From Ricinus communis (Eukaryota; Streptophyta; Magnoliopsida; Malpighiales; Euphorbiaceae), in the NCBI RefSeq assembly GCF_019578655.1, contig NC_063257.1:17112001-17176000 (forward strand): a DNA stretch of 64,000 bases. Reading direction: 5' to 3'. Below, piece by piece: positions 10,424 through 63,763 of the stretch. Each line of letters starts with the position of its first letter. Position 1 is the first letter of the stretch. The position numbers were made by a program, and so were the translations under genes. The notes beneath the pieces were generated by a model that made no database searches, was not told the DNA's origin, and saw only the letters and a program-made list of their open reading frames with translations.

Positions 10424-10461
10424 ATCACTCCACACTTAAGCTTTTGCTTGTCCTCAAGCAA
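10424..10461 (-). promoter_or_regulatory. Element B 3' polypurine tract and hairpin 2
   Basis: On the minus strand a perfect 7-bp stem TTGCTTG / CAAGCAA with loop AGGA (10444-10461) is followed by the purine tract aagtgtggag immediately before the 3' LTR. The tract should prime plus-strand DNA synthesis. The same module occurs next to the LTRs of D, G, X and Y. Confidence 0.75.
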
Positions 10462-11880
10462 TTAACAACACAACTCACAAAACCGTAGTCAGCAAGTCCT
10501 CAAAGTTCATGCCCCTAGGCTACAACAAATAGCATTCAACACATTTCGAAAGAAACTCAATTGTAAGTTAAGTTGCAAATTATTAGTAGAGAATGGAGAT
10601 AATATTAATGCACGAATAATTTAAACAAAAACTCAATAACAAATATCAAGAACCAATGCTTCACAGGGATCACTCAAGTCACTCAAAGTGTGTATAAGAT
10701 GAGAAACAAATCCCTCAAAGAAAATGCACAAAAGTCGCTTACCATAAGCTTGCTCATAAATTCTATCTCCACTACTGCGAAAAAATGAATGCCAAAATCA
10801 AAGGGTCTTTACCATTGTTGTCATGGGGCTAAGGTAAAGGTATGGAAATTTGGGAAAGAAGTGTGAAAATGCTGAAAATTCTTGCAATAAACAACAATGT
10901 ATGTTCAAAAAATTAAATGCCAAAAAATACAAAACATTTTCACTAAATCCTCAATTTGTAGAATAATGCTCGAAAATATTATCAATCTAATAAAGAGAAT
11001 AAGAAATAAAGAATTTTGTTATTTTTTTTAATGAAAACTGAACTAGCAGCTTATAAGAGAACTTCTGTAGAAAACTGAATAAAGAAAAGAGTAAAAATAT
11101 AGTTTGGATTGAAGGGAGCATCTAAAATATCAAAAGGATTTAGTGAATTCACCAACATGGCAAATGGCATTTTAAACCCAAATAAGAGAGAGCAAATCAC
11201 AAAAATTCCAGCATAAAGGTAAAAAAAAAGATAAAATGAAAAGGCTAAGATGTAAAGTGTGAAATTATATAAAATGAAGAAAAGGGTAAAGGCTCAACAT
11301 AGCTAATTAATGGAAACACAAAGGGTAGGCTTTTGGCCAAGTGCGATGAATCCTAAGTTACCCAAATCATTTAATGGTATTCACAAATTCATGTAATCTC
11401 AACAAGCATTACAGAGCAAGTTCTAGAAGCAAAAGCAAGTACAATGCATACTCAAACAAGAAATATAAAGAGCATATGTATAATGAATGCTCAACTGGCT
11501 TAAAATCTCACATTTGAAGTGTGGCATTAATTGGAATTGGTTCTCAACATCACTAATTGAATCATCACTTAAGAAACACATGTGTATGACATAATCAACC
11601 TTCTAAGTTAAAATTCGACAGCTCGAGAAATAATAACTAACACTAGTTTAACTCGGCAGAGTTGATGTATTAAACACCATTAATTATTCTCCAAGGACAA
11701 TGAACAACAAAGAAAAGTAACTGAAATTCTATAAATCAAATTGTCAATTAGCTCAAAAATAGCATACTTAAGTGCATAAAAACATAGTATCCTAATATCC
11801 TAACAATATACATAATCAGTGATAGCAATTCCAGATACAGCTAAAAGAAAATCACAACAAAGAGAAAGGAACATACGATT
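10462..11880 (-). other. Element B long non-coding 3' spacer
   Basis: No ORF of note. The part at about 10650-10833 is a block also found in elements D (46278-46460) and G (32250-32400), with the shared wording gagcaagcttatggtaa, then cccatNacaac and taaagNcc. It lies about 280 bp from hairpin 2 in all three elements. Confidence 0.65.
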
Positions 11881-11885: not shown

Positions 11886-11919
11886 ACCCCACACTTAAAG
11901 AACACATTGTCCTCAGTGT
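11886..11919 (-). promoter_or_regulatory. Element B internal hairpin 1 and purine tract
   Basis: Minus strand: stem ACACTG / CAATGT-type of 6 bp with one G-T pair, loop AGGA (11904-11919), then aagtgtgggg (11886-11895). This duplicates the 3' PPT module about 1.45 kb upstream of the LTR. Confidence 0.65.
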
Positions 11920-12051
11920 AAAACGAAGTGGGTACCTCGCATGGAAAGTACAAATAAGGGAAGCAAAATCAATAATATCCAAGTACATAACATGTATGAA
12001 AAATAAAGTAAAGAAAAGTAGAAAATGAAAGAAAATCTAGGGAAGATTGCC

Positions 12052-22852: not shown

Positions 22853-22892
22853 AATACCCCCACACTTAAACCTTTACTTGTCCTCAAGTAAA
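22853..22892 (-). promoter_or_regulatory. Element X polypurine tract and hairpin 2
   Basis: Minus strand: perfect 8-bp stem TTTACTTG / CAAGTAAA with loop AGGA (22873-22892), then ttaagtgtgggggta next to the LTR. The stem differs from the TTGCTTG / CAAGCAA of elements B and D by paired changes. Confidence 0.8.
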
Positions 22893-23035
22893 TAGCAACT
22901 AAGAATTAACTTTTGCAAAAATCATGAAGAACATTCATACTCGACTTCAAGATATTATTCAAAAGAATCTCATTAATGCAAAGATCATGTCAACCTAAGA
23001 ACACTTGAATCTAATAATTTTCTTAAAAAGTTAAA

Positions 23036-24516: not shown

Positions 24517-25365
24517 GTAAACTCAATCATTGTTAATCAAAAGACTCAAGCATCCAATTCTTCCCACCTGTTTCACAACAAATAGTCTAACTCATCTTTA
24601 AAGGATATAACTATGATGCATAATCCAAATTATCATAACCCTATTCAAAGAGGCAAAACCTTCATTCATAACAAGAGATCAATAGAGATTTATACATTTT
24701 TTATCACTTGCTTTTCAAGCTCTTATACTTTTTTTCTTTTCTTTACACCTATTGGATTTTAATTTTTGATACTTGGGGAATTTCTTTCTTTCTTGAGATG
24801 TTATGTATTTTTATGTAAATATAAATATGGGTAATGAATGCACCTGGTTACTCAACAAAACATACATCAAGATGCTTTGTATACTCCTGATCTTAATTGC
24901 CTTTTTACGTGAAAATCGACATTGGTCATGAAGATTCTTGGTTACTAAGCAACTAAGATTAGTGAAGTAGAATTATATCACTTAGAGCTTTAACTTGCCC
25001 ATATCATATCTCATAAACTTAGGCAAGCCAATTTAGTAACAAGAAAATCATAATCTAGATCATACACTTCCAATTATATCTAACTCAAATTTGCAAACTA
25101 TTCATCATGTCCATATGCAAAGAATAGATACTTAATCATTTAAGTGCAAATAACTCATGAATTCACATTATACATGTTAAAAACTAACTCAAGAGTTCAA
25201 GAATCTTAACATAATAGTATTCTTTCATCGACTCTTATATCGAATAATAAGAAAAAACTGAGTAAAAGAATGTTAAAATATTACAAAATTTCACCAAAGT
25301 TATTAATTCTCATGGCATGGCATGTAAAGTTTAATTGAAGAAATATTCTATTTCTCAGCCCTACA

Positions 25366-25393
25366 CTTAGATTTGACATTGTCCTCAATGTCA
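25366..25393 (-). promoter_or_regulatory. Element X internal hairpin 1
   Basis: Perfect 8-bp stem TGACATTG / CAATGTCA with loop AGGA (25374-25393) on the minus strand, followed by aagtgtaggg. Confidence 0.75.
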
Positions 25394-25554
25394 TTGCATA
25401 TATAAAAATAAAGATCAAGAATAGAGGAAAAAGATAGAAAACTCTCCTAGAGGTTTGCAATGCATAGTAAGCCATGAACTTGAATTCCAATCTCAACCAT
25501 CCTAACCTTTTAGTTCTCAAATTAAAACATTTAATTTGAAGTCAAAATTGGGCA

Positions 25555-30507: not shown

Positions 30508-31991
30508 TGAACGGGTTGTCGAAGCCCTTCAAAATAAATTACTGATTTTCCTAAACTAACTTGTAGAAATAGTGAAACCAGGTCGAATCCCAAGGGAACC
30601 AATGTGGATAGCTTCTCAAAGTAAAATAAAAGGGGGGTTTTTGAATGTTTGAATCAAAATTATAAATAAGCAGAAAATAATGAAGGCTGAATAGTAAATA
30701 AAAATCAATCTTAACAAAATTCCAATTCAAGAGTGCTAATTCCATCCAATTGTAATCATGATCATAGGCTAAAATATTAATTCTTCTATTCAAGTACTTA
30801 GTCTACTTATTCGAAAAAGCCGCAACAAGTGTAATTCTTCTAATATAATTGACTCAAACCCAACATCCAAATCAAAACTTACCATTAGTCAACTGGGCAC
30901 GATAGCGTTCCATATCAACTTAATGATAGCATTAAGAATAATGAGAATGACTAAACCAACATTAATTTAATTGAGATAACTGCAATTGAAATAACCTTGT
31001 TCCTTTATTTTCCTAGAGCTTATCATGCAAGCTATGTAATTCGAATAAGCCGTAATCACACACACATGAGCCAGCTCCTTGCTACTTGTGTCAATCGTTC
31101 ATGACAATTACGGATCACAAACTCAAAGTTTAGCAATAGAAAAATCAATATCAAAGTTGAGTCGTCAGTTCAATCAATATCAATAATTCATAAATAATAG
31201 GAACAAGAAATAAAGAATACTTGAATTAAAGAAGAATTCTGTTAAGCTCAAAGCCTCACAAAATCACAATTGAAATTTATTCACTCTTGAATTAGAAACT
31301 AGAAAACTTAGCCACTCATGGTGGAGTAAGAATTAACAAGAATTGTAGAGAGTAGAAGAAGAAATAAGAATATGAATATCAATTTGAATCTAAATCTGAA
31401 TCTCCATCTAAATCTCAATATCTAGCCGTCCTTATATAGGAAGTAAAACCTTAAACCCTAATAGAATCCTTATCAAAAAGAAATAAGCTTCCTATTTAAT
31501 CTTATCCCTACAAGAAATGATAAGATTAAAAGTGATCTAAATAAATTAAAACCCTAAATACATGGAAGAAAGTTCTATTAATCCAACACTTCCAAAAATA
31601 GAGGAGATTAACTAGGGATAGGTCCACCACAATGAAAACTCTGAAAATTTTGAAGCTCTCCTTAGCATCTTTTAGCAGCTCATGGGGTGCAAGGCGTGGT
31701 CACGCCTTGCTGATAGTAGTCTTCTGCACAGATTTCTGCGGAGCTTATGGGCTGTAAGGCGTGGTCACGCCTTGTCGACAGTGATCTTCTGTGCAGATTT
31801 CTGCGCTTCCTCCAAAAGACTTAGTTTTTGATAAATGATGACTTAAAACATGTCTTTAGGCTGGATTTTGCTCCATCCTTGATATTGCATCACCTAAGTC
31901 AGAATAAACATAATTTCCATAATTAAGTACATTATTCAACCAAATTGCAAGGAAATTCAACACGATAAATATAACTATTTGTGACTTATCA
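30508..31991 (-). repeat. Element G 3' LTR
   Basis: Runs TGAACGGG to CTTATCA on the plus strand. Minus-strand TATA box (CCTATATAAG) at 31431-31440. Two copies of the word aaggcgtggtcacgcctt lie upstream at about 31690-31775. A short hexamer run of gaatct type occupies about 31370-31420. Confidence 0.92.
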
Positions 31992-32030
31992 AATTCCCCT
32001 ACACTTAATTTATGCTTGTCCTCAGGCATA
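31992..32030 (-). promoter_or_regulatory. Element G polypurine tract and hairpin 2
   Basis: Minus strand stem TATGCCTG / CAAGCATA with loop AGGA (32011-32030; one mismatch), then aagtgtaggggaattt next to the LTR. Confidence 0.7.
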
Positions 32031-33324
32031 CCTCAATTCAACATACCAATTCTCCTTTTAACCTTCCTTTCATCTCTTTCAATCTCCTCAAATACCAAAT
32101 AAATTAAACATACATTAATGAGCTGAATAATAATGACAATCAAGAGATTAGCATTCATAGGATAAATTTTGTAAAAAGAACAAGTATCTCAATAATTCAT
32201 CAAAATCAAAGCAACGAGACTTAACACCCTTACATGGTTTCACTCAATATTCTCAAAGTGTTTAGGGTGCATTTACTCTTGGAATCAAAACAAAGCATGT
32301 TATTACCATAAGCTTGCTAATGAATCAAGTCTCCACCACTACACATGAATTAGATGCAAAAATCAAAGGGACTTTACAAAGGTTGTAATGGGGCTTAGGA
32401 AAGGGTGTGATAAAGGAAGAGCTGAGATGTTTCATAATTAAGACAAAAAGATTAGATTCTTGCATGGTAACTTATGCCACATCCACGAAACATATTACAA
32501 AAACTTTGAGATTTATTCCCACATTTTATATTAGCACTAAAAATCTTGGAGAAATAACATGTAATAATTCAATTCAATATATTTGATGAATACTTCTCCA
32601 ATTATCCTCTTTCATGAAAGGAATAAATATCAACTTCCTTTCCCCATTTTTTTCTTTTCTTTCTCTCTTTTTCTTTTTTTTGTTGTTGTTTCATTTGTAC
32701 CATGCAACACTTCCCTTCTTGTCTTGACAAGGGTAGAAAAATAGAGGTAGCAAACGAAAGGTCTTGGGTTAAACAACATGTGTTAAAAATAAAAAAGAAA
32801 ATGGAAAATAGGCTCAAAGTGGCTAACTAAAAGAGAAATCAACACGGTAGGTATTTTAAGAGTCTAAGAATAGGTTAATCCTAATTGCCCTTATCATATT
32901 AAAACATCAATCCAAAAATGTGGTCTCAATATGAATTCAGAAGCAAGTTCTAGAATAATCATACTAGTTTGATAACACTCAATAAAAAAATAATTAGAGC
33001 AAAATATAATGAACTGCTCTTTGGCTCAAAAGCTCACTTGAATGTTTACATTTGTATCAAGTCTTATGCATTTTTCAATCAATAAACTAATGAGATACCT
33101 TCGGATAGTTTTAAAGAAATACTAATCATGCTTATCCCCTTTCATGCATTGAAATTCAAACCAAAAATGTATTTCTAACTTACATGGTATTCCAGGTTAT
33201 CAAAATAAAACTCAAGGTTGCAAAAGAAGAATTAGAACATATGAATTAAAGCATACCTAATTATAAGCATAAAAAAAAATATTTTGAAAAAGTAAAGGAA
33301 ATCATGTAATTATCATATTCCTCC
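32031..33324 (-). other. Element G long non-coding 3' spacer
   Basis: No coding region. About 32250-32400 is the block shared with B (10650-10833) and D (46278-46460), again about 275 bp from hairpin 2. Confidence 0.65.
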
Positions 33325-33357
33325 CCCACACCTAAACTATACATTGTCCTCAATGTA
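33325..33357 (-). promoter_or_regulatory. Element G internal hairpin 1 and purine tract
   Basis: Perfect 7-bp stem TACATTG / CAATGTA with loop AGGA (33340-33357), then aggtgtgggggagg on the minus strand. Confidence 0.75.
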
Positions 33358-33574
33358 TCAAAAAGAAAATGGCTCACAAAAGAAATGAAAAGAAATATGA
33401 AACTCCCCTGATTTGCGAGCAATTCATACTGAATAGTGAGTGGTGATGGTGGGAAAGGAAGTAGAACCGCCTAGTAAAAATAGAAAGTTTTGGTGATGGC
33501 TGCTGCAAAAGAAAATAAAACGTTGGTGGCTATGGCAAAATAAAACGTTCTCTTTTCTTTTCTCTTTTTTTTTA

Positions 33575-34185: not shown

Positions 34186-36619
34186 TTATGCTCGACGGAA
34201 TGATAAAATATTTGAGTCATCCAAATAAGTGAGGTGATCCAAAGGAAAACTAATGGAACATAAAGCAATTTCACCCTCATGGAAGATCTTCAATCTATGA
34301 CCATTCAGTTTGAAAATTTTATCCGAATCCAAGCTTCTAATTTCCACTTCTAAATTAGATTGTGCATCTAATTCTTTCTCATCACTAATATTTTCTTTTG
34401 CAAATACTTCCTGCACAATTGGATTAATTACATCAATATGGCAAAGAGAATGTAAATTATTAGGATATTTCATTGCATCGAAAATATTAAATTTAACAAT
34501 CTCTCCATCAAACTCTATGGAGAGAGTACCCTCATCTACATTAATCTTTGTCTTAGCAGTTTTCATGAATGGTCGTCCTAATAAAATCGAAGCTGATTTT
34601 AATGAGGAATTACCATCCATTTCCAAAATGTAAAAGTCGACAGGAAATATGAGCTCATTAACCTGCACCAAAACATCTTCAACAACTCCAAGGGGATGAA
34701 TATAAGAATGATCAGCTAATTAAATCATTACACCAGTCTTTTGCAAGTTATTTAGTTTCAATTCTTGATAGATAGAAAATGGCATGACATTAATGGAAGC
34801 TCCTAAATCTAACATGGCATGCTCAATTTTCGTATTACCAATAACACAAGGTAATGAAAACATACCTGGATCCTTGCATTTTTCAGGCATATTCTTTTGC
34901 AAGATGGCCGACACATTCTTACTTACCACCACTTTCTCTTTTTCCTTCATCCTTCTTTTGTTTGTGCATAATTCCTTCAAGAACTTTGCATATTTAGGAA
35001 TTTTCTTGATAGCATCCAATAATGGGATATTTATCTCCACCTTCCTAAATGTATCCAGGATTTCCTTTTCTTGCTCATCTTCTTTTGGCTTAGCTAATCT
35101 GCTAGGAAAAGGAGGTAATGGAGTGTGAGATGAAAGAGATAGAGGAGGATCGAATTTTACCCCACGTGATGCTTTAGAGGAAGCTTCTTTTTCTTCCTTT
35201 TCCTTGCTCGGTTCACTTTTCTTAAGTGGAATAGACCCTGAAGAAATCTCCTTTCCACTTCTAAGAAAAATTGCACTAACATTCTCCTTTGGATTTATCT
35301 CTGGTTGTGAAGGTAGTTTTCCAGAATTTTGAGCCTCCAATTTACTAACCGACGTAGCCAGTTGAGTAATTTGATTGCCTAAACTCTGAATGCTTGACCT
35401 TGTTTCCTGTTGAAATTGAAGAGCATTGTTAGCAAGATTTTGAACAATATCTTCCAAGGACATACCTGAATTAGAAGCTTGAGGTTGTCTATTGAAATTC
35501 TCAGAAGGATACTTTTGTTGTCCTCCTTGGTTCCCATAGCTCAAATTCGGGTGATCTCTCCATCCAGGATTGTAATGATTAGAAAAGGGGTCATACTTCC
35601 TTTGAGATTGACCAGTAAATTCGCCTAGAGCGTTAGCTTCTTGCATGGAGTCTTGTTGCAATGTTGGACACATATCGGTGGGATGTCCTTGCAGTGAACA
35701 TATTCCACAGACTTTTGCCATTTGCAATTGCCCTACAGCCATTTGACGAACCAAAGCAGTTAAATCAGAAATTTGATTTTCAAGATTTTTAGTACTTACC
35801 TCATTATCTCGCCTTGTAGCTCCATCAGCCCTTGTACCAAATTGCTGAGAATTTTCGGCCATGTTTGAAATTAATTGCTTGGCTTCTTCAGGCGTTTTAT
35901 CTACCAAAGCTCCACCACTTGCTGCATCAATCATACTCCTATCCATTGGCAATAATCCTTCATAGAAATATTGGATTAGGAGTTTCAGAGAGATTTGATG
36001 ATGTGGGCATTTAGCACACAGTTGCTTGAACCTTTCCCAATATTCATACAACGTTTCCCAGTGAACTGTGTTATGCCAAAAATTTCTTTTCTGATGTTGG
36101 CAGCTCTTGTTGCAGGGAAAAACTTGTCGAGGAACAATCTTTTCATCTTGTTCCATGTTGTTATTGAACTGGAAGGTAGATAATAGAGCCAATCCTTTGC
36201 TTTATCCTTCAAAGAAAAGGGGAAAGCTCTAAGATTTATTTGCTCTTCGGTCACACCATGTGGTTTCATTCCGGAGCATACAATATGGAATTCTTTCAAG
36301 TGTTTATGAGGATCTTCACCTGCACATCCACGAAAAGAAGGGAGTAAGTGAATTAAACCAGATTTTAATTCAAAATCAACTGCAATATTAGGAAATGTAA
36401 TGCATAAAGGTTGTTGATTTAAATCGGTGCAGCCTAGCTCTTTGAGAGTTCATTCGCCATGTTTTCTGTAACTTCTTGAAAAGAGATGCGTCGCCAATAG
36501 CTATATCTATTTCCTCTATGAGATAATTTTTTCTTTGCTTAGTCTCCTTTCTTAATTGGCTAGTCTTCTCAATTTCGTGGATTAAACCGCAAATCAATAT
36601 CTTGAGAAGAACGAGTCAT
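34186..36619 (-). pseudogene. Element G gag-protease with fused integrase tail
   Basis: Starts at ATG 36619 (MTRSSQD), with early frame breaks. The capsid core is readable at 35985-36299 (EEQINLRAFPFSLKDKAKDWLYYLP). A 490-codon open stretch (34720-36192) holds the end of capsid, a canonical knuckle C-x2-C-x4-H-x4-C (CGICSLQGHPTDMC), a Gln- and Lys-rich linker, and protease motif LDLGASINVMP. After a single CAA-to-TAA stop (about 34720) it continues through ILLGRPFMKTAKTKI to IFKLNGHRLKIFHEG, which is the last part of an Athila integrase. RT, RNase H and the integrase catalytic core have been deleted, with the protease joined to the pol tail. This is the best preserved Gag in the window. Confidence 0.88.
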
Positions 36620-36673: not shown

Positions 36674-36675
36674 TT

Positions 36676-38152
36676 TGAACGGGTTGTCAAGCCCTTCAAA
36701 ATAAATTCACTGATTTTCCTAAACTAACTTGTAGAAATAGTGAAACCAGTCGAATCCCAAGGGAACCAATGTGGATAGCTTCTCAAAGTAAAATAAAAGG
36801 GGGTTTTGAATGTTTGAATCAAAATTATAAATAAGCGGGGAAAATAATGAAGATTTGAATAGTAAATAAAAATCAATCTTAACAAAATTCCAATTCAAGA
36901 GTGCTAATTCCATCCAATTGTAATCATGATCATAGGCTAAAATATTAATTCTTCTATTCAAGTACTTAGTCTACTTATTCAAAAAAGCCGCAACAAGTGT
37001 AATTCTTCTAATATAATTGACTCGAACCCAACATCCAAATCAAAACTTACCATTAGTCAACTGGGCACGATAGCGTTCCATATCAACTTAATGATAGCAT
37101 TAAGAATAATGAGAATGACTAAACCAACATTAATTTAATTGAGATAACTGCAATTGAAATAACCTTGTTCCTTTATTTCCCTAGAGCCTATCATGCAAGC
37201 TATGTAATTCGAATATGCCGTTATCACACACACATGAGCCAGCTCCTTGCTACTTGTGTCAATCGTTCATGACAATTACGGATCACAAACTCAAAGTTTA
37301 GCAATAGAAAAATCAATATCAAAGCTGAGTCGTCAGTTCAATCAATATCAATAATTCATAAATAATAGGAACAAGAAATAAAGAATACTTGAATTAAAGA
37401 AGAATTCTGTTAAGCTCAAAGCCTCACAAAATCACAATTGAAATTTATTCACTCTTGAATTAGAAACTAGAAAACTTAGCCACTCATGGTGGAGTAAGAA
37501 TTCATAAGAATTGTAGAGAGTAGAAGAAGAAATAAGAATATGAATATCAATTTGAATCTGAATCTGAATCTCCATCTGAATCTCAATATCTAGCCGTCCT
37601 TATATAAGAAGTAAAACCCTAAACCCTAATAGAATCCTTATCAAAAAGAAATAAGCTTCCTATTTAATCTTATCCCTACAAGAAAGGATAAGATTAAAAG
37701 TGATCTAAATAAATTAAAACCCTAAATACATGGAAGAAAGTTCTATTAATCCAACACTTCCAAAAATAGAGGAGATTAACTAGGGATAGGTCCACCACAA
37801 TGAAAACTCTGAAAATTTTGAAGCTCTCCTTAGCATCTTTTAGCAGCTCATGGGGTGCAAAGCGTGGTCACGCCTTGGCGTGATGATCTTCACGCAGTTG
37901 CGGAGCTTATGGGCTGTAAGGCGTGGTCACGCCTTGTCGACAGTGATCTTCTGTGCAGATTTCTGCGCTTCCTCCAAAAGACTTAGTTTCTGATCAATGA
38001 TGACTTAAAATATGTCTTTAGGCTGGATTTTGCTCCATCCTTGATATTGCTCACCTAAGTCAGAATAAACATAATTTCCATAATTAAGTACATTATTCAA
38101 CCAAATTGCAAGGAAATTCAACACGATAAATATAACTATTTGTGACTTATCA
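36676..38152 (-). repeat. Element G 5' LTR
   Basis: About 1477 bp, direct repeat of 30508-31991. Minus-strand TATA box (TTATATAAGG) at 37598-37607. Two cgtggtcacgcctt words lie at about 37860-37935. Confidence 0.92.
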
Positions 38153-38157
38153 GGGAG

Positions 38158-40002
38158 CCATGTTGCAGCAGCAAATTTTCACACGGGCCCATAGTAGAGG
38201 CACGGCAGGGACGACACGGGCCCGAAGCAGTCAAGTAGCAACAGATCCAGCCGCGGGTCGCAAGGTGGCTGCGAGTTGCAGGGCACATGCAATGGACGAG
38301 GCCTCAAAAAAGACAACCGCGGCAGCAACACAAGGTCGCCAGCCGCGAGGTCGCGAGCCACATGCAGCGGAATAGCTCACAAGGTACACCATAGCGGCAC
38401 TAGCAAGAACACTGCGAGCTCATGGAGGAGCAGCCAAGCGCAGTGCGCGGACGGGCCTACGACGTAGGCAGACGCGGAAGCAGCTTGACGATGTAGTTCA
38501 CGCGAAAATTTTGAATTCTTGGCTATTTTTCGGCGAAAATTAAAATAATTATATCTAAAAAATTAGGGATTAATTATAATGAAAAATAGAGTTATTTTTA
38601 AGTTAAAATACTATCTTTAAAAATTAAATATATATCCATCTCTTCCACATAAATAGTCATCTCACTGATTTAGGATTTTATTTTAATTTTTTTAATTCTA
38701 GGATTTGTATTTATTTTTTAGGACATAACTTTTAATTATCTTAAGATTTAATCTTTCTAGTATATTTAGGATAGTTTATTATTTTCAATTTTTTATTTTT
38801 TATTTTTTTATAATTATTAATGATGTGTGTTCAAGTGTGCTTCTAAGATCTGGATGGTGGAGATTGGAATTCAAGTTTATTGCTTACTATGCATTGTAAA
38901 ACTCCAGGGGAGTATTATATCTTTTTCCTTTCTTCTTGATCTTTATTTTTATATATGCAATGACATTAAGGATGATGTCAAATTTAAATGTTGCAGAGGG
39001 AAATAGAGTATTTCTTCAATTAAACTTTATATGCCATGCCATGAGAATTAGCAACTTTGGTGAATTTTTGTAAAATTTTAAATTTTTCTACTCAGCTTTT
39101 TCTTATTATTCTATATAAGAGTCAATGAAAGAATGCAATTATGTTAAGATTCTTTAACTCTTGAGTTAGTCTTTAACATGTATAACTGTGAATTGATGAG
39201 TTATTTACACTAAAATTATCAAGTATCTATTCTTTGCATATAGACATATGATGGATAGTTTAGCAAATTTGAGTTGGGTATAATTAGAAGTGTATGATTT
39301 AGACTATGCTTTCCTTGTTACTAAATTAGCTTGCCAGAGATTGTAAGATATGATATGGGTAAGTTAAAGCTCTAAGTAATATGTTCTATTTTGCTAATTT
39401 TAGTAGTTTAATAACTGAGGATCTTCATGACCAATGTCAATTTTCGCGTAAAAAGGCAATTAAGATTATGAGTATACAAAGCATCTTAATGTATATTTTG
39501 TCGAGTAACTAGGTGCATTCATCATCCATGTTTGTATTTGCGTAAAAAGACATAACGTCTCAAGAAAGAAACAAATATCCTAAGTATCAAGTAAAAATCC
39601 AAAGGGTGTAAGAAAAGAAAAAAGTATAAGAGCTTCAAAAGCAAGTGATATAAAAAATATATAGATGTCTATTGATCTCTTGTTACGAATGAAGGTTTTG
39701 CCTTTTTGAATAGGGTTATGATAATTTGGATTATGCATTATAGTTGTATCCTTTGAAGATGAGTTAGACTATTTGTTGTGAAACATGTATGAAAGATTGG
39801 ATGCTTGATTCTTTTGATTAACAATGATCTAGTTTATATTTTCAAAGAAAATTATTATGATTCAAATGTTATTGGGTTGACATGATCTTTGCATTAGTGA
39901 GATTCTTTTGAATAATATTTTGAGGCTGAGTGTGAATGTTCTTCATGATTTTTGCAAAAGCTAATTCCTAAGTTGCTATTTACTTGAGGACAAGTAAAGG
40001 TT
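38158..40002 (+). mobile_element. Element Y non-coding 3' region
   Basis: Continues element Y after the G insertion. A GC-rich minisatellite (about 38160-38500) is followed by AT-rich spacer, a decayed internal hairpin 1 (tgacatt...gatgtca at 38961-38980) and about 1 kb of spacer to hairpin 2. ORFs crossing the GC-rich tract have no domain content. It is a plus-strand copy of what element X has in reverse. Confidence 0.75.
38160..38500 (+). repeat. GC-rich degenerate minisatellite of element Y
   Basis: Words such as gggcacatgcaatggacgagg and cgagccacatgcagcgg recur about 70 bp apart. Homologous to 25555-25755 and 41290-41510. Confidence 0.7.
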
Positions 40003-40014
40003 TAAGTGTGGGGG
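39979..40014 (+). promoter_or_regulatory. Element Y hairpin 2 and polypurine tract
   Basis: Perfect 8-bp stem TTTACTTG / CAAGTAAA with loop AGGA (39979-39998), then ttaagtgtggggg (40002-40014) four bases before the LTR. Confidence 0.8.
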
Positions 40015-41289: not shown

Positions 41290-41884
41290 AGACGCGGGCC
41301 ACACATAGCGGATGGGACCGCGAAGAAGACAATCACGGCAGCAGCACAAGGTCACCAGCCGTGAGTCGCGGGCCACACGTAGCAAATGAGGCTGCGAGGC
41401 GCGGACGAGGCCACGAGGCGTGCAACAGCGGCACCAACACTTACGTTGCGAGCTCGCGGAGGAGCTGTCAGGTCGCGACACATGCGACTTCACCACTTCT
41501 TTGGCTAATTTTGACTTCAAATTAAATATTTTAATTTGAAAACTAAAAAATTTGGATGGTGGAGATTGGAATTCAAGTTCATGGCTTTAATTTGCATTGT
41601 AAAACTCCAGGGGAGTATTCTATCTTTTTCCTCTCTTCTTGATCTTTACTTTTATATATGCATTGACATTAAGGACAATGTCAAATTTAAGTGTTGGGGA
41701 GGGAAATAAAATATTTCTTCAATTAAACTTTATATGCCATGCCATGAGAATTAGCAACTTTGGTGAATTTTTACAAGATTTTAAATTTTATACTTAGCTT
41801 TTTATTATTATTTTATTTAAGAGTCAATGAAAAAATGCAATTATGTTAAGACTCTTGAACTCTTGAGTTAGTTTTTAAAATGTA
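41290..41884 (+). mobile_element. Z: third family-C fragment
   Basis: Starts abruptly inside the GC-rich tract (41290-41510; the cgcgggccacac word twice, about 75 bp apart). It continues through the ggatggtggagattgg segment and hairpin 1 (TGACATT / AATGTCA, 41664-41683, then aagtgttggggaggg) and is cut at 41884 by LTR J. Non-coding. Confidence 0.75.
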
Positions 41885-42389: not shown

Positions 42390-43830
42390 TGATGTGCATA
42401 GAATACACACATCTAAATAGGGATTTTAAGGCAGAATTTATGTACATTTGGATGTGAATTGGTCCCAACATTCACCCTATGCATTTGTTTATATACTTTA
42501 GGTCCAAAAGAAGTCAAGGAGTGATAAAGGGAAGAATTGGACATCAAAGTTGCTGAAACAAGTCAAGTTTGCGCATCCCTAATCTGAACATGGTCGTGTT
42601 GGTTTCAACACTGGCCGTGTTCCCAACACGTGCACCAACACGGCCGTGTTGGTGCATCAAACATCAAAGAAACAGAAGTTTTAGGGAGCACGGCCACATA
42701 GAGTAACACGGGCATCAACACCAGCCCGTGTTGGGAACACGGCCACCAACACGGCCATGTTGGCTGGCGACAGGGGGAATTAGTTAAAAGAAAGAAGAGA
42801 GGAAAGAAAAAAGAGAGAGCGGGGGAGAACATCCCAAACCCTAATTTTTCTCTCCCTAAGGGTTTTCTGAGCTGAAACCAAAGGAAAATGAGACTTGGAT
42901 CAAGGTTTCAATCGGATTCCCTTCAAAGATTGAAGATTGGGCGAGGTTTGTTGATTCGTTTTCAAATCGAGCAAGAGGAACAAGAATCGATTCAATTCGA
43001 GCAAGAGGAATTGGGGCTGTTTACTCTCATCCAAGGGTGTAATCGGGTTTTCTCTACCTTTACTCATTGTTGTAATTGAATTCTTGTATGTTTTGATAAT
43101 GAATATGTTTAGCTAGATTGATTAAATCCATTAGGATTTCTTTACTATGTTGGCTTAATGTTATATTGTTGGATTGTTTGGGTTAGTTCTGTATTCTTCT
43201 TGCTTTCAGTATTAATAAGATAATGCATTATTCATGAGACGTTGTGAATTGTGTGTTTAGATTGCTTTGTGTGATTGAGAAGTCCATTTGGCAATTGAAA
43301 TCTTGAATAGCAAAAACTGGTTAATAATTGCTTAGAGATAAGGATAATTAACTAGCCGGATTAAGAATTAACAAAGCTTAATAGAGGCGGATTAAAGCTT
43401 AATGCTAATTTAAGAATCAGTCGTTAGGAAGAGATTCCAACTTTAGGTTATTAGATTTAGGAATTCGGTTATCTCAAGAGAGAAACCGAATTCGGTTAAG
43501 AATTCATCCACGGGTAGCATAATTAGACTCACCAATCCTTTATCTGTTGTTTGATTGCCAACTAGTTTAGGTTCCCTTTGGGTTTGCTTTCTTGTCTTGG
43601 TTATTTTAGTTATCAATTACTCCTGCATCTCCCTTAGAATTTAGCTTGTACCTATTAGTTAGTTTAGAAATTATTCATCAATAATTTTAGGTTAATATAA
43701 CAAAGAACAAAGGAGTAACTCTGGGCTTTCACTTTCCCGAGGAATATGACCTTGATACTCGCCATTAGTGCTAGACTGCATCGCTAGGTACACTGCTTTA
43801 GATTATAGCTAACACAAGTAGCACACATCA
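42390..43830 (+). repeat. Element D 5' LTR
   Basis: 1441 bp, TGATGTGC to CACATCA. A palindrome cluster lies at 42585-42775, and a telo-box-like AAACCCTA in the leader at 42836-42843. About 4-5% diverged from 46680-48104, with extra indels in the palindrome cluster. Confidence 0.9.
42631..42656. repeat. 26-bp perfect palindrome in the D LTR
   Basis: The half-site TGCACCAACACGG is followed directly by its reverse complement. It is the longest of many cacggccgtg-type words between 42585 and 42775. The D/E shared LTR keeps 22 bp of it at 46920-46941. Confidence 0.95.
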
Positions 43831-43836
43831 AGTTTT

Positions 43837-43853
43837 TGGAGCCGTTGCCAGGG
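43837..43853 (+). other. Element D primer binding site (tRNA-Asp)
   Basis: TGGAGCCGTTGCCAGGG, two mismatches from the complement of the plant tRNA-Asp(GUC) 3' end, six bases after the LTR. Confidence 0.85.
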
Positions 43854-43983
43854 AATGTTTGAAAACTAGAGTGAAATTTGCTATTTGTTAATTTAGCCAT
43901 TTTTATTTATTTATTTCTGTTTTGTTTGTATATATTTATTTAGTTAAGTTTATGATTCAGGTATTGAATGATAAGGAGGTTCA

Positions 43984-44891
43984 ATGTTAAATTCAAACTC
44001 TTTGTATGATGCGTTGGAAAATGGGATTAGGAACCAAGAGAGTGCTAAAAATTGGGATACCCGTGCATCTTTAGAAGCTCTAGTGGAATCATTTTGCAGG
44101 GCTACCAATCAACTCTCTACTCCTATCCTTTCATCTCAAGTTTTTTGTGAATTTTGTTGTGGTTTACATTTGAGTAATGATTGTCCATTGTATAGTGATG
44201 TTGCTCATTGTTCTTATAACTATGAACAGGTGAATTATACGGAAAGTTGGCCAAATAACTCGTATAGAAGCACTTACAATCAAGAGTGGAGCACTCATTC
44301 ACCTTTTGGATGGAGCTTAGATGGCCCAGAACCACCAGAATCTCAGCAAACACATCAGCAGCCTAATCTTGCACCTTCAACTCAAGATGAAGAGTTAGTG
44401 TCGGAGGAGCTGATGATGAGGTTCATTACAAGTCTTGATGATAGATTTTGACAAACAGAGAGGGTACTTGAAAGTCAACAAGCCTCAATTAAGAACATAG
44501 AGCATCAAGTAGGCTTGATCTTCAAGTTACTAGCTGAAGAGCAATTGGGAACTCCATCAAACGCTACTGAATCTAAGGAACACTTGAGCGCCATCACTTT
44601 GCGTTCAGGTGAGAATTTTTTTGGTTTATCTACTATGTTTGACGATGATGCTTCTGTGTAGGACGATTTCTTGAACATGGAGATGGAACCAGAAAAGGAA
44701 GAGGCGAACATAATTCCTTTGAAAGACTATCAACAGGAATGTACAGTTGATGATGTTGAGTTGCAGGTAGAGGAATTGTTGGTGGATTTTCCACAAGTCC
44801 CTTCGATGATGGAAGATGAGCACTAGTTATCCAATGAAGAAGTCTTGGAGGAGCTCGAGTTTCTTCTAGCAAGTGAACCAAGCAAAGACTG
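43984..44891 (+). pseudogene. Element D Gag tail remnant
   Basis: 155 open codons from 43984, then the same frame with stops. It has NQLSTPILSSQVFCEFCCG and a knuckle C-x2-C-x3-H-x4-C (CEFCCGLHLSNDC), an aromatic/Asn-rich segment (NSYRSTYNQEWS), SEELMMRFITSLDD, and the linker HLSAITLRSGE that precedes protease in relatives. The capsid core that should come before it is deleted, and the protease after it is deleted too. Confidence 0.75.
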
Positions 44892-45453
44892 AAGAAAACC
44901 ATCGACACTCCTGAAGAAATTGCCCAACCATCGATCCTTCCAATTGTTGAAACTCCAACTCTCAAATTGGAAGAGCCCCTACAACATCATGACTATGTTC
45001 AATTATATGAGGAGCGAGTTTTGCCCATCATACTGGCAGCTTGCTTGACAGTCGGGAAGAGGAAGTCGACGATTATCCCTTTAAGCGGATACTTGAAGCC
45101 ATTTTCTTGGAAGAAGGATGGATGGTCGTCAATCCCCACCGTTTGCTTTTCACCATGAGTCCAGCTAAGAAGACTCATCACATAAAAAAGAAGCGCTTTT
45201 GGGAGGCACCCTAAACTTTGTCTTTAATCTCTAATATTTTAACCTTTTGTTTTGAAACATTTTATTAGTTTTAGTTTTCATATTTTATTTAATTTTTGTT
45301 TCAGTTTCGGTTTTAATTCTTTATTTTATTATTTGCAGCCACTCCTCTACCACAGACTAATGGCATACGATATACTGTGATGCACCTCTTTTCACTCCCG
45401 GAGCCATAGTCAGGCGATTAGTTCTTTTCCCTTTTGCATTTCTTATATTTTGT
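44892..45453 (+). other. Element D pol-end relic and spacer
   Basis: Around 45150-45215 the sequence matches the end of pol in E (agtccagctaa, then aagaagcgc and a tttgggaggc hairpin-like word). Everything between the Gag tail and this point in a complete element is missing. No ORF is supported. Confidence 0.6.
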
Positions 45454-45490
45454 ACACTGAGGACAGTGTGTCCTTCAAGTGTGGGGTGGG
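45454..45490 (+). promoter_or_regulatory. Element D internal hairpin 1 and purine tract
   Basis: Perfect 6-bp stem ACACTG / CAGTGT with loop AGGA (45454-45469), then aagtgtggggtggg (45477-45490). Confidence 0.8.
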
Positions 45491-46640
45491 TGATATTTAT
45501 CCCATCTTAATTATTTGTTTATTCTTTGTGCAATTTTTTTAAAAAATTTAAAAATATTTCACTTTGTTTCTATGCTCTTACTGTTGACTTGCTTTTGAAA
45601 TCCTGTTTATGTCCATGTGATCGGGTAAAACCGATAGTGTTGAGTTTTGCAGAAGAATGTAAGATAATTAGTTTGAGTTTTGCACTAAGTTGCTTTGGTT
45701 TATTTAATTCTGTTTTGATGATTTTTGTTTGGAACCTACTCAAAAGCACACTTGTGAGAAATTGAGCCTAAATTGTAAGCATACACTTTATATGCTTGTA
45801 TTTATTTCTTGTTGAGAGTGCCAATTACTGTCTTTACTTTTAGAACTTGCACGGTAATGCTTATGAGGGCCATAAGGAGAGTTTAACACTTTAGTATGAT
45901 AGAGGCAATTAAGTTTTTCATTCTAGCCAAATAGCCTTCATTCGTTTATTGATTCTGTAGATAACCCCCTCATTCACCATTTTCTATCATATTTCTTATA
46001 GCAGCTTTCTTCAATCCAAAAGAAACTCACTCTATTACGTGAATGTTCTTCCTTTATGAAAAAAAAGAAAAAAAATAAATAGAAGAATAAGAGGGAAAGG
46101 TGATGAAAAGAAAGAAAGTAAGTGAGCTAAACATTTTGACTTGATTCCTATTTCCCACCTTGGACTATTGTTCATTGTTTATCCTTTATAATTTCTGTGG
46201 CTTGTGTGCAAGTCATTTATCTCATTGCAGAACACCATAGGTTCAACTCTTACTAAATTTACCTATCCTTACTTAATCCCCATTACAACCCTTATAAAGA
46301 CCTTTTAACATGGTTGTTGACTCTCCATAAATGGTAGGAGTAGGATTTAAGAGCAAGCATATAGTAATTAAGGCAGTATTTGATGCATTGAGCGATTTAA
46401 CACTATCCTTTAAACACTTTGAGTGACTTAGAGTGAATCTGGTGAGGAGTTGGTTCTGAATAATTTTGTTAAGACAGTATTTTGCGAATTATTGGTATCT
46501 TGGTTGTGATACTTGAATTGATTGCTTCGTTTCTTTTTGTTTGACTTACGCTTGTTAAGGATATGTGCAGGAGCTCTCTAGCTTGTCTGTCAGTTTAAGT
46601 ATTGTTCCTTAGTGGTTTATTTTCCTTATTTTACTTTTGA
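45491..46640 (+). other. Element D long non-coding 3' spacer
   Basis: No supported gene. Bases 46278-46460 are the block shared with B and G (ccccattacaaccc, taaagacc, gagcaagcatat and cactttgagtgactt). Confidence 0.65.
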
Positions 46641-46679
46641 TTGCTTGAGGACAAGCAATGAGTTAAGTGTGGGGTTATT
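46641..46679 (+). promoter_or_regulatory. Element D hairpin 2 and polypurine tract
   Basis: Perfect 7-bp stem TTGCTTG / CAAGCAA with loop AGGA (46641-46658), then aagtgtgggg (46665-46674) and the LTR. Confidence 0.85.
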
Positions 46680-48104
46680 TGATATGCGTAGAATACACAT
46701 ATCTAAATAGGGATTTTAAGGCAGAATTTATGTACATTTGGATGTGAATTGGTCCCAACACTCACCCTATGCATTTGTTTGTGTACTTTAGGTCCAAAAG
46801 AAGTCAAAGAGTGATAAAGGGAAGAATTGGACGTCAAAGTTGCCGAAACAAGTCGAGTTTGCACATCCCTAATCTGAACATGGCCATGTTGGTTTCAACA
46901 AGCGTGTTCCAACACGATACACCAACACGGCCGTGTTGGTGCATCGGTATCAAAAGCAGAAGTTTTAGAAACACGGCCACGAGAGGTAACACGGGCATCA
47001 ACACCGGCCGTGTGGGAACCTGACCACCAACGGCCGTGTTGGCGGCAGCGGGGAATTAGTTAAAAGAAAGAAGAGAGGAAAGAAAAAAGAGAGAGCGGGG
47101 GAGAACGTCCCAAACCCTAATTTTTCTCTCCCTAAGGGTTTTCTGAGCTGAAACCAAGGGAAAAGGAGACTTGGATCAAGGTTTCAATCGGATTCCCTTT
47201 AAAGATTGAAGATTGGGCGAGGTTCGTTGATTGGTTTTCAAATCGAGCAAGAGGAACAAGAATCGATTCAATTCGAGCAAGAGGAATTGGGGCTGTTTAC
47301 TCTCATCCAAGGGTGTAATCGGGTTTTCTCTACCTTTACTCATTGTTGTAATTGAATTCTTGTAGGTTTTGATAATGAATATGTTTAGCTGGATTGATTA
47401 AATCCATTGGGATTTCTTTACTATGTTGGCTTAATGTTATATTGTTGGATTGTTTGGGTTAGTTCTGTATTCTTCTTGCTTTCAGTATTAATCAGATAAT
47501 GCATTGTTCATGAGACGTTGTGAATTGTTTGTTTAGATTGCTTTGTGTGATTGAGAAGTCCATTTGGCAATTGGAATCTTGAATAGCAAGAACTGGTTAA
47601 TAATCGCTTAGAGATAAGGATAATTAACTAGTCAGATTAAGATTTAATAAAGCTTAATAGAGGCGGATTAAAGCTTAATGCTAATTTGAGAATCAATCGT
47701 TAGAAAAAGATTCCAACTTTAGGTTATTAGATTTAGGAATCCGGTTATCTCGAGAGAGAAACCAAATTCGGTTAAGAATTCATCCACGGGTAACATAATT
47801 AGACTCACCAATCCTTTATCTGTTATTTGATTGCCCACTAGTTTAGGTTCCCTTTGGCTTTGCTTTCTTGTCTTGGTTATTTTAGTTATCAATTACTCTT
47901 GCATCTTCGTTAGAATTTAGCTTATAGCTATTAGTTAGTTTATAAATTATTCATCACTAATTTTAGGTTAATAGAACAAAGAACAAATGAGTAACTCTAG
48001 GCTTTCACTTTCCCGAGGAATACGACCTTGATACTCGCTATTAGTGCTAGACTGCATCGATTGGTACACTGCCTTAGATTGTAGCTAACACAAGTAGCCT
48101 ATCA
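46680..48104 (+). repeat. LTR shared by elements D and E
   Basis: 1425 bp, TGATATGC to CCTATCA. It has a polypurine tract on its left side and a primer site on its right side, so it serves as 3' LTR of D and 5' LTR of E. Its palindrome cluster (about 46875-47045) is shorter than in 42585-42775 through several small deletions. Confidence 0.9.
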
Positions 48105-48249: not shown

Positions 48250-49700
48250 ATGACCAGGAGCTCTAATCCTACTACTGTCGACCCTCTTGCTAAACCAGAG
48301 TGATCCCTCCATTTGTTGAGGAAGCGTATGTAAGAAGAAGAGGAGGCGCGGATAGAGTTTGAAGCCCTTGTGAATAAACTAGCAGGGATGGGAGACAACA
48401 ATCGGGTTGCGGATGAAGCCAGGACTATATACGAGTTTGCTAGACCTTCTCTTGAGGGGACACAGACGAGTATATTGCGACCATCTATAGCAGCCAACAA
48501 TTTTTTAAAATAAAGCCAAACGTGATACAAATGGTGTAGAATAGTGTACAATTTGGGGGACTGCCGAGCGAGGACCCAAACGCTCATATCGCCAACTTCT
48601 TGGAGATCTGCGACACCTTCAAGATAAATGGAACAACTGACGATGCCATTTGGCTGAGGCTGTTTCCTTTCTCTCTGAAGGACCAAGCGAAAAGATGGTT
48701 GCAGTCGCTCCCAGCCAACACTATTACGACATGGAGATGATTGGCTGAGAAATTTCTATACAAGTACTTTCCTCCAGCTAAGACTGCTAAATTAAGGAAT
48801 GACATTTCTTCTTTTGTGCAAATGGAAGACGAGAGCATGTATGATGCTTGGGAGAGGTACAAGGACTTAGATGCTGTCCACACCACGGTCTACCAGTCCG
48901 GATGCAAGTTCAGACATTTTATAGTGGTTTGAACCTTGCTACTAGACAAATGGTTGATGCAGCAGCAGGAGGGGCGCTGAACAGTAAGACGCCCGAGCAG
49001 GCTCAAAATTTAATAGAGGAGATGGCCATGAACAATTATTAGCGGTAGTCTTCTAGGAGCCGACCAATGAGGTAGGGAGTGGTCAATCATTTGGACTCCA
49101 CCGCATCCTTGGCAGCTCAAGTGGAGCTTCTGACCAAGAAGTTAGACCAGCTTCAGATGCCGGTTCATGCAGCCCAGATAAGTTGTGAGTTTTGTGGTGG
49201 CCCGCACTATAGTGCAAACTGTAATGCGGGAGGTATGTTTGCTTCAACTACTAATTCTTCATCTTCTATTATTTTCTGCTGATATTGAATAGGTAGACTA
49301 CATGGGTAATGCACCTAGACAGCAGAACAATCCATACAATAACAGATACAACCTCGGCTGGCGTAATCATCCAAATTTCGGATGGAGAAACAACAACGCC
49401 GGGGTCCACGAGGCTTCGAGAGCGCATCGGCCACCACCAGCGATGGCTGTACCATCACAGCTTCCTCCACCAGCCGAGAAGAAATCTAACTTGGAGGAAC
49501 TGATGATGAAGTTTGTCACGTTGACTGAGATGATGTTCCAGCAGACAGACAATGCTCTTAGAAATTAGCAGGCATCCATTTAGAATTTGAAGAGTCAGAT
49601 CAGGCAGATATCTAAGATGCTGTCTGAGAGGCCACAAGGATCACTCCCCAGCACAACAGAGTCAAACCCAAGGGAGCATTGCAAGGCTATCACCTTGTGA
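48250..49700 (+). pseudogene. Element E gag
   Basis: Starts at ATG 48250 (MTRSSNPTTVDPL), with an early stop. The capsid core [20 protein letters not shown] and [15 protein letters not shown] is readable near 48580-48735, followed by YDAWERYKDL. The nucleocapsid knuckle at 49184-49222 is C-x2-C-x3-H-x4-C with all ligands intact (CEFCGGPHYSANC), one residue shorter than the canonical CX2CX4HX4C. The tail has NNPYNNRYNLGWRNHPNFGW. Several stops and frameshifts. Confidence 0.85.
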
Positions 49701-53009: not shown

Positions 53010-53011
53010 TT

Positions 53012-59073: not shown

Positions 59074-59078
59074 TCTTC

Positions 59079-60597: not shown

Positions 60598-61893
60598 TCC
60601 ATGTCGAGTCCAGCTAAATGACTCAAGAACCAAAAAGAAGCGCCATTGGGAGGCGTTCCCATTTTTAGTTTTATGTTTTTTGGTTTACTTTTATGTTATC
60701 AATTGTTTGCATGCTTGATGATCTTTAGAACACTTACTTTATATACTAAACATAGTTGTATGAATCTAGGGTTTAAGTAACTTAAGTCGGATTTTTGGTC
60801 ATTAGTGAAGACGGACTTCCCTGTTTGATATATTTTACTTAATTTATAGCCTAAATGTGTGCGTATATGTGTTAAATGCAGGTAGGGAGTTTGGCAACTC
60901 GAGGTGGCGAAAGAAAGCTCGGACTTCACCTGTCCACCATAGTTTCCATAGGCATCACGGGCTGCAACACCAGGTCATGCTTATCAGCACAGCCGGAGTC
61001 ATAACCGTGATGAATATGCATATAAAGGGTGTGGGAAAATAGCCATCCACCACGGCTTCTGAGGCCACCATAGGCTGCAACACCAGGGCATACCGGTCAC
61101 CACGCCCGTGGCCCAGCCTGTGATTGAGATGCACGTAAAGCACAAAGCAAAACCAGCCGTCCACCACGGCCGAAACACCAAGGCGGCAACACGGTCGTCT
61201 TTGACCGGTAGCAGCCATGCCCTCACCGGTGATGGATTGGCATAAGGATGTGGCTTTAGGGTTCAGCACGGGCTGAGTCTTGGCCATGCTGACCAGCACA
61301 GCCTTGCCCTCGCCCGTGCTGACCCCCGTGACTATATAAAAATGCCTTTTCAAAAATTTCCCTACCTTTCCCTCTCTATGCTCTAAGGTGATGTTTCTTC
61401 TTTGTCTTTGATTTTTCTTACCTGTCACGACAATTTCAAGTAAGTCTCTTCGCCTTTTGCTTTTATTTGATTAAATTTGAATTTTCTTTTATGCAATTTT
61501 TATTATTTAGGACATTTTGATATGCTTTAGTAGTTTGTTTTATTACAGTGCTTAAATTTGACTTAGATCAGATTTAGTTAAGACTAGTTGCTATTTTTAT
61601 GTGATTTTGAATAATGAAATGTTAAGTGTGAGGTTTGGCAGCAATAAAGTTTATTTATGGCATTTTATTATGAAAAATTGATAGCATAAATTTTCTTTAT
61701 TTGGTGCGTGATAAAGTGGGCTGGAATGTAATTGTGAATTAATTTTTTGTAGGAGATTGAGGCTTTAGTTTTAGTTTTAAGTCTAAAGTTTTATGTTAGT
61801 CAAATTATAGCCGTTATGCTGTTTAATTTTCGGTATAATTTATGTTAACTTGATTTCTTGTTGGAATACTAATGATTCACCACATTAGGCAAT
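60598..61893 (+). other. Element E spacer between pol and the last ORF
   Basis: Just after pol lies a hairpin word (TGGGA / TCCCA, 60647-60661) with loop ggcgt. A cluster of GC-rich words (accacggc, cacgggctg, cccgtgctgac) at about 60950-61325 uses the same vocabulary as the LTR. The rest is AT-rich with no supported gene. Confidence 0.65.
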
Positions 61894-63491: not shown

Positions 63492-63729
63492 AAAGAATTT
63501 GTGCTATTTTTCTTTTCCTTTTCCTTTTTATTTTACTTCTTTATTTTTATTTTACTTTATTTTCATTTCTTTTTGCATTTTCATTTTATGTTATTTTCTT
63601 TCATTTTCTTTTCATGTTATGTTATTTTAGTGGAACACTTTGCTTTGCCATCTTAATATGTACATTTAATATGATCTTCATTTTTTTATAGTGTGCTAGT
63701 TATGTTCTATACCCAGTTTTATTTTCTCT

Positions 63730-63763
63730 AACACCGTGGATAGTGTTATACTCAAGTGTGGGG
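63730..63763 (+). promoter_or_regulatory. Element E internal hairpin 1 (decayed) and purine tract
   Basis: aacac / gtgtt stem around a loop where relatives have AGGA (63730-63747), then aagtgtgggg (63754-63763). Confidence 0.55.

Follow-up and report, generated by a model that had tools for sequence, protein, structure and literature searches.

A duplicated, covarying hairpin beside the purine tracts of Ty3/gypsy elements in Ricinus communis: a candidate plus-strand priming unit

Background

In Athila4 and Calypso, a second PPT is located in the interval between pol and the LTR (Wright and Voytas 2002, cited in PMC2829016). The elements described here share with these env-containing Ty3/gypsy elements of the same lineage one putative extra PPT between pol and the 3' LTR, whereas the parts of the PMC2829016 account covered here mention no hairpin, fixed spacing or covariation for them. 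According to the same parts, Sireviruses (Ty1/copia) resemble the present elements in having several identical PPTs upstream of the 3' LTR, a paired element beside the terminal PPT and upstream copies without an attachment site; their inverted repeat encloses the PPT, has its right arm inside the LTR and is missing from the upstream PPTs (PMC2829016). In the elements of this study, by contrast, both arms lie upstream of the tract and the hairpin is found at both copies.

The central PPT of HIV-1 and PPT2 of Ty1 lie in coding sequence far upstream, and we know of no covarying hairpin at either. They are comparable in that they provide a second plus-strand start inside the genome (PMC2829016, in part), while for Ty3 the covered part of PMC5371799 states that no central PPT has been identified. 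Foamy viruses possess four repeated PPT-like purine elements, A-D, that differ in role: protease-RT binds the stem-loops containing A and B, element D equals the 3' PPT, and one of the purine-rich elements constitutes the central PPT. Unlike the arrangement reported here, these elements are in pol and the stem-loops contain the purine elements themselves, and the sections covered make no mention of a common hairpin-plus-tract unit at the 3' PPT (PMC6669543 for all of these points).

The window analysed here, a stretch of 64,000 nucleotides of the Ricinus communis genome (GCF_019578655.1, NC_063257.1, positions 17,112,001 to 17,176,000), is crowded with nested Ty3/gypsy elements. A sequence-only reading of the window had described two copies of one hairpin and purine-tract unit in each Athila-type family, one adjoining the 3' LTR (site 2) and the other further upstream (site 1), and had proposed selection on a structure; all eight sites that it named were recovered in place. 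The second PPT of Athila-type elements is known, and the hairpin is apparently new, no description having been found. In a search mostly outside subscription journals, the literature matches listed included no covarying hairpin at an Athila PPT; a study of Athila recombination (PMC2410132) mentions neither PPT nor hairpin, and one of Retand (PMC11963269) mentions a PPT once and a hairpin never. A full-text search for the sequence words gave, among the matches listed, unrelated papers. In viral contigs, one module pattern occurred in four contigs, judged chance by their context, and a search by integrase gave no relative; one pattern sought in genome contigs gave no match.

Results

Architecture of the module

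Read 5' to 3', the module consists of an 8-nt arm, an NGGA loop (mostly AGGA), a second 8-nt arm, 5 nt and the tract AAGTGTGGGG. A covariance model identified 11 modules in the window; they score 30.7-53.8 bits, compared with 14.2 bits for the next match (Table 1). As the model was built from 59 distinct modules including some of the window copies, the scores of these copies are partly by construction. Across all 44 sources searched with this model, the scores leave a gap between 24.5 and 17 bits. AGGA loops with at least five perfect pairs occur seven times in the 64 kb, and the tract (one mismatch allowed) stands behind all seven, while 40 Markov-1 simulations gave a mean of 1.0 AGGA hairpins (maximum 3), none with a tract behind. 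When sites were anchored by the tract only, pairing was best at a loop of 4 and a distance of 13, with 5.21 of 6 pairs, against a mean of 2.52 (sd 0.50) over all settings (loop 3-12, distance 6-44).

Table 1. Hairpin modules, tracts, LTRs and associated features, in positions of the window
Feature	Position	Strand	Remarks
D 5' LTR	42390..43830	+	PBS-like stretch from 43837
D site-1 module	45450..45486	+	ACACTG/CAGTGT stem plus two G-U pairs, loop AGGA; 52.9 bits
D site-1 tract AAGTGTGGGG	45477-45486	+	
D site-2 module	46638..46674	+	arms ATTGCTTG/CAAGCAAT, loop AGGA; 52.5 bits
D site-2 tract	46665-46674	+	followed by 5 nt, then LTR TG at 46680
D 3' LTR, also 5' LTR of the next element	46680..48104	+	94.5% identical to 42390-43830
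PBS-like stretch behind LTR 46680..48104	from 48111	+	
B site-1 module	11887..11923	-	one C-A mismatch; 53.5 bits
B site-2 module	10428..10464	-	tract AAGTGTGGAG; 49.1 bits
X site-1 module	25359..25395	-	arms TGACATTG/CAATGTCA; 45.3 bits
X site-2 module	22858..22894	-	arms TTTACTTG/CAAGTAAA; 2501 nt from X site 1; 53.8 bits
G site-1 module	33324..33360	-	arms ATACATTG/CAATGTAT; 51.4 bits
G site-2 module	31997..32032	-	one mismatch; loop-tract 12 nt; 30.7 bits
LTR TG behind G site 2	31991	-	5 nt past the tract
G 3' LTR	30508..31991	-	target-site duplication GGGAG at 30503-30507
G 5' LTR	36676..38152	-	target-site duplication GGGAG at 38153-38157
G gag and protease-like region	34348..36449	-	
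Y site-2 module, X type	39977..40013	+	53.8 bits
Decayed site-1 partner of 39977	38961..38987	+	1016 nt upstream; 14.2 bits, below the gap between true matches and noise; repeat D9
Site-1 module of another X-type element (Y area)	41662..41698	+	A-C closing pair; 45.8 bits
Site-1 module	63727..63763	+	one G-T and one C-A; 43.7 bits
Site 0, third tract AAGTGTGAGG, without NGGA hairpin	61624..61633	+	2.1 kb upstream of site 1

The interval of 5-15 nt previously given between hairpin and tract proved to be fixed: from loop to tract it is 13 nt in 87 of 92 GGA sites, i.e. 5 nt after an 8-bp stem, the others having 12 nt (four sites) or 14 nt (one site, judged a chance match). These sites come from 100 genome and 11 window sites examined, 19 of which are without GGA at that place. 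The loop had been described as AGGA, which predominates (66 sites), but NGGA is the more accurate form, as GGGA (5) and TGGA (4) also occur among tract-anchored sites pairing at at least 5 of 6 positions. The stems, taken as perfect or near-perfect, include exceptions in B site 1 (C-A), G site 2 (a mismatch) and site 1 of the Y area (A-C closing pair), and the module at 63727 is likewise imperfect, with G-T and C-A pairs.

Over arms, loop and tract, conservation among 17 sequences amounts to 0.77-2.04 bits per site (arms 0.8, loop 1.54, tract 2.0, with 0.49 in the 5-nt spacer; the G site-2 row stands one base out of register in this alignment). The flanks are little alike between families, with 0.13-0.28 bits upstream and 0.20-0.45 bits downstream of the module in the same sequences. 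At gathering thresholds, Rfam yielded three matches in the window, all to snoR71 (RF00097) and none on the modules. The matches lie in or beside gag-like stretches (26053-26160 and 48789-48891 on the minus strand, 19773-19868 on the plus strand), and the snoR71 model may pick up retrotransposon sequence.

Elements carrying the module

The window ORFs contain domains in the gypsy order (Retrotrans_gag, Asp_protease_2, RVT_1, RT_RNaseH, Integrase_H2C2 and rve). The PBS of Athila elements stands a few nt past the LTR and is complementary to tRNA-Asp; a tRNA-Asp 18-mer matches with 2-3 mismatches at the LTR ends 43837 and 48111 and at a third site, 20547 (minus strand); at up to five mismatches, four matches were found versus 0.4 expected by chance. 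The gap from the LTR CA to the PBS is 6 nt at these ends and 5 in Diaspora, and G has a different PBS stretch. The Tat sister clade is distinguished by an additional RNase H (PMC6317226, in part), a domain reported in none of the 15 ORFs scanned, these being a subset with broken frames. Relatives found by integrase are plant sequences that bear general names only. From their layout and partly matching PBS, the elements appear to be Athila-like members of Ty3/gypsy.

Element G (30508-38152, minus strand) has the GGGAG duplication on both sides, i.e. a 5-bp target-site duplication, and LTRs that are 97.9% identical (31 mismatches in 1473). Five queries for RT, RNase H or integrase, drawn from the window, gave no match in it at E 1e-4, and it retains gag/protease-like sequence together with both modules. 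Mobile without RT or integrase, G must owe its movement to the proteins of other elements; its keeping of both modules, as cis-acting sequences must be kept, is an observation pointing to a cis-acting role of the hairpin module. Element D contains between its LTRs only a short protease-like stretch (44524-44733), and constitutes a weaker case than G because its 3' LTR is common to the next element. The two share this LTR in the order LTR-D-LTR-gag (42390-48104 onward), and such an LTR-sharing tandem suggests recombination between elements. L074/L073 elsewhere in the genome is a mosaic element in which the family switch falls at the module.

Protease (49.6-50.7 kb), RNase H (51.7 kb) and integrase (59.6 kb) of the element that begins at 46680 are arranged around a nested element; the gypsy element at 52105-59074, with LTRs at 52105-53010 and 58169-59074 (97.6% identical) and RT and integrase between them, separates the RNase H part of another element from its integrase part. 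By domain order, the module at 63727 would be site 1 of the element starting with LTR 46680-48104, and the matching site 2 would fall past the end of the window. Around the module at 41662, X-likeness runs as far as 42387, immediately ahead of the D LTR, and probably does not extend to the site 2 of that module. The X-type copies 24014-25502 and 41885-42387 stop at a matching place (24014 and 42387, respectively) beside D-kind LTR-like sequence, as if sharing one old insertion.

Two copies per element

The host genome (315.5 Mb, 140 contigs) contains 4743 copies of AAGTGTGGGG and 153 of the reversed word. The first 100 places of AAGTGTGGGG, on part of contig C1, were picked without regard to the hairpin and all read: 42 are site 2 (adjoining an LTR start), 43 site 1, 6 site 0 (see below) and 9 other. 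In this assignment, g4573769 and g16726407, which are site 1 under a loose rule, were dropped as chance (45 to 43), and w10428 and g14983622, site 1 under the rule, were judged to be site 2.

Exact pairs of site 1 and site 2 on the same strand number 28, of which 27 are 984-1591 nt apart and one 2756 nt; no reverse-order pair within 3.5 kb is among them. The separation of 1.0-1.45 kb proposed for the window agrees with G (1328), D (1188) and B (1459) but not with X (2501), whose interval contains LTR-like sequence. In the Y area, the full modules at 39977 (site 2) and 41662 (site 1) are in the wrong order for one element. Absence of the hairpins from most intact relatives had been named as evidence against the sequence-only reading; the genome gives the opposite picture, with a site-1 module upstream, on the same strand, of 24 of 27 site-2 modules (20 of 22 in fetched loci and 4 of 5 in the window), by a hand count of covariance-model matches that takes site 2s with at least 1.6 kb upstream and omits three site-1-centred loci. 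The fifth site 2 of the window (39977) has its decayed partner (38961) at the right distance.

The hairpin is present in 46 of 46 site 2s (42 genome, 4 window), a class set by the LTR-start motif, and in 46 of 50 site 1s, a figure that is partly circular as the hairpin helps to define site 1. Site 2 is mostly followed by NNNTT and the LTR TG, which lies exactly 5 nt past the tract in D (46680) and G (31991); the LTR-start motif recurs in 2 of 50 site 1s, both considered misfiled site 2s. In D and G, AAGTGTGGGG is thus placed as expected of a PPT, as a purine-rich tract directly upstream of the 3' LTR, and it holds two T. The tract ends 5 nt before the LTR TG (31992-31996, 46675-46679) and the PBS starts about 4-6 nt after the LTR CA; each end of the cDNA may thus have some 5 surplus nt that integrase would remove. 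The interval between site 1 and site 2 was also considered as a former LTR and rejected, since that of D (45487-46664) had no match to the LTRs in a self-comparison.

Site 0, a third kind of AAGTGTGGGG-type tract set in conserved surroundings of its own, occurs on C1 at 7684875, 14199158, 15094397, 15132173, 15233059 and 16693696. The NGGA hairpin is present in none of these six, and in the three genome cases having an exact site 1, site 0 lies 2.0-2.1 kb before it. The second PPT of Athila4 and Calypso very probably corresponds to site 1 or site 0.

Covariation of the arms

Lack of significant covariation in a larger alignment would also have spoken against a selected structure. In the host genome, 59 distinct modules of 92 (alignment A1, from which four modules with 12-nt spacing were omitted to keep it gapless) give a covariation score of 0.648, compared with 0.233 (sd 0.021) for shuffles and at most 0.149 for slid registers; 88.3% of cells pair, and two-sided changes occur at 6 of 8 pairs. 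A second alignment (A2) of 18 representatives, chosen by hand at about one per family against score inflation by relatives, has 90.3% of cells paired and a covariation of 0.721, with slid registers at or below 0.168. It includes a second X copy (L031), whose differing stem adds one of the 16 changes counted below, and omits G site 2 (12-nt spacing).

Along a minimum-spanning tree built from the 18 hand-picked stems, 16 two-sided changes keep pairing, against a null mean of 2.7 and null maxima of 8 in 5000 and 10 in 2000. Site 1 alone gives 9 (null 1.6; 0 of 2000 reach 9) and site 2 alone 4 (null 0.7; 1 of 2000). When the arms are slid by -2 to +3, the count is 0-2. On the 59 modules the tree count is only 7 (null 1.58, maximum 6), because many steps pass through one-sided intermediates. 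Compensation is also seen within a family: X site 1 has TGACATTG/CAATGTCA and L031 has TGATATTG/CAATATCA, the two differing at pair 5 only.

Neither of the two loop-adjacent pairs shows a two-sided change, and the RNAalifold consensus comprises the outer five pairs only, all with two-sided change, around an 8-nt loop. Two of five measures do not exceed the shuffle controls, namely the number of pairs with a two-sided change (6) and of pair types (16), for which the shuffle means are 6.5 and 16.6 in A1 and 5.8 and 13.5 in A2. The case consequently rests on the frequency of letter matching and not on the number of varying pairs. New families were sought by excluding the known stems at pair 4; by eye, nearly all of the 26 places found are decayed known stems, and one place has a compensated T-A (C1:29431449).

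The duplicated structural module is real and bears strong signs of selection, the covariation evidence coming from one genome. The earlier proposal of selection on a structure is supported by these data: the arms change in pairs, and loop, tract and spacing are fixed while the flanks diverge.

Strand of action and alternative folds

A hairpin acting in plus-sense RNA should tolerate G-U better than A-C. The inner six pairs of 91 sites include 13 G-U and 20 A-C, and at pair 3 genome-wide C-A (CACTG/CAATG) is found 110 times versus 68 for T-G, about 3.1 standard deviations from equality by a hand calculation on mostly fossil copies with subfamilies pooled. ACACTG-type site-1 stems make up most of both pair-3 lists, and the change is the same, in the same CACTG context, on either strand. 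Plus-strand RNA is thus not favoured by the pair counts, which lack a G-U excess and lean, weakly, in the opposite direction, to a minus-strand DNA hairpin or a GGACAA sequence preference.

As RNA, D site 2 folds as the NGGA hairpin, whereas for D site 1 the favoured structure is a longer stem in which the tract is paired (-14.5 kcal/mol, against -5.9 for the AGGA hairpin). In 37-nt module RNAs, the mean pair probability of the NGGA stem is 0.65 in 25 site-2-like and 0.30 in 34 site-1-like modules, much of the remainder falling to a tract-pairing fold; many site-1 RNAs are therefore predicted to prefer a tract-masking fold. Folding-energy z values of the 11 window modules against dinucleotide shuffles range from -2.93 to +0.26, and since several are unremarkable, the hairpin would not be established by stability alone. 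As a conserved structure, pairing between 5' arm and tract was rejected, having no two-sided change and a covariation equal to that of shuffles. This pairing is somewhat better than that of shuffled/random arms (median fraction at least as good 0.047/0.091 for site 2 and 0.155/0.221 for site 1).

Discussion

The hairpin very probably does something in element copying. As the role of the module, plus-strand priming, both at the 3' PPT and at a second PPT, stands a little better than an even chance. A second internal priming site was one of several roles offered by the sequence-only reading; it is the one favoured here, with the second PPT of Athila4 and Calypso as precedent, although priming itself is a step beyond the observations. 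AAGTGTGGGG would be the PPT core, and the hairpin, whose loop lies 13 nt and whose stem base lies about 5 nt upstream, would help to define the primer. Site 2, which ends 5 nt before the LTR, would be the ordinary 3' PPT, and site 1, mostly 1.0-1.6 kb upstream, a second PPT without the LTR-end (att-like) sequence, marked as such by the tract and hairpin, which recur there with unchanged spacing.

In the mechanism proposed, RT making the minus strand would copy the tract, then meet the RNA hairpin and pause. With the enzyme paused, its RNase H would sit some 15 nt further back, where GGGG ends, and cutting of the RNA at that point would fix the 3' end of the primer. If the stem has 8 bp, 15 nt separate its base from the last G of GGGG. 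Between polymerase and RNase H, the distance is about 17-18 in HIV RT. For Ty3 RT it is about 13 bp (PMC5371799, in part). We infer priming at either tract, with the hairpin acting in RNA during minus-strand synthesis and site 1 serving as a second plus-strand start. Several points count against such a priming unit: A-C pairs outnumber G-U pairs, the NGGA probability at site 1 is low (0.30) and the RNAalifold consensus has five pairs. The tract of site 0, without the hairpin in all six cases, indicates moreover that the hairpin is not needed for every tract copy.

An extended version, for which the chance seems slim, treats the module as a two-state switch that times the two plus-strand starts of an element and so orders synthesis between the sites. 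The 5' arm and loop would have two alternative partners: pairing with the 3' arm would keep the tract accessible, and pairing with spacer plus tract would conceal it; the hiding fold would be stable in the commonest site-1 families and the free fold would occur mostly at site 2. No retroelement is known to us in which PPT use is under structural control of this kind.

Three other accounts of the module compete with priming. A packaging or Gag-binding signal appears unlikely, if the least so of the three: zinc knuckles would bind the G-rich NGGA loops, two per genome, and the link to the tract would be only positional. Retroviral packaging hairpins do show exposed G-rich tetraloops, conservation of the loop is second only to that of the tract (1.54 bits per site), and the gag-bearing G keeps both copies without RT or integrase. 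Packaging signals are, however, usually at the 5' end, and the fixed 13-nt distance to the tract (87 of 92) and the copy adjoining the LTR would be left unexplained. It is also possible that site 1 is the relic, without present function, of an old duplicated PPT region and that its arms were matched by template switching, through which imperfect palindromes become perfect; this can happen to palindromes in the absence of selection, the group recombines (L074/L073 belongs to one family upstream of site 1 and to another downstream), and the tree count on 59 modules is just 7 (null 1.58, maximum 6). This origin is improbable, given that the two-sided changes affect one to three pairs per branch (e.g., pair 5 between X and L031) and not whole arms, and that loop, tract and spacing stay constant while the flanks diverge.

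Control of RNA 3'-end formation, splicing or export, by analogy with foamy virus purine-rich elements, of which element C controls env splicing (PMC5294762, in part), is doubtful to a similar degree. Some site-1 copies run on with GTAAAC or GTACC, which resemble splice donors, but these words are family-specific and absent from X and G, and splicing is not expected at the LTR border where site 2 is located. Priming thus remains the preferred reading of the module.

The module constitutes a practical landmark for the 3' LTR borders of these elements. PPT selection by RNase H and the reasons for a second PPT have been studied mostly in HIV and in yeast elements. Should a covarying hairpin at constant spacing be part of the PPT in this abundant lineage of plant elements, it would provide a directly testable determinant of PPT choice.
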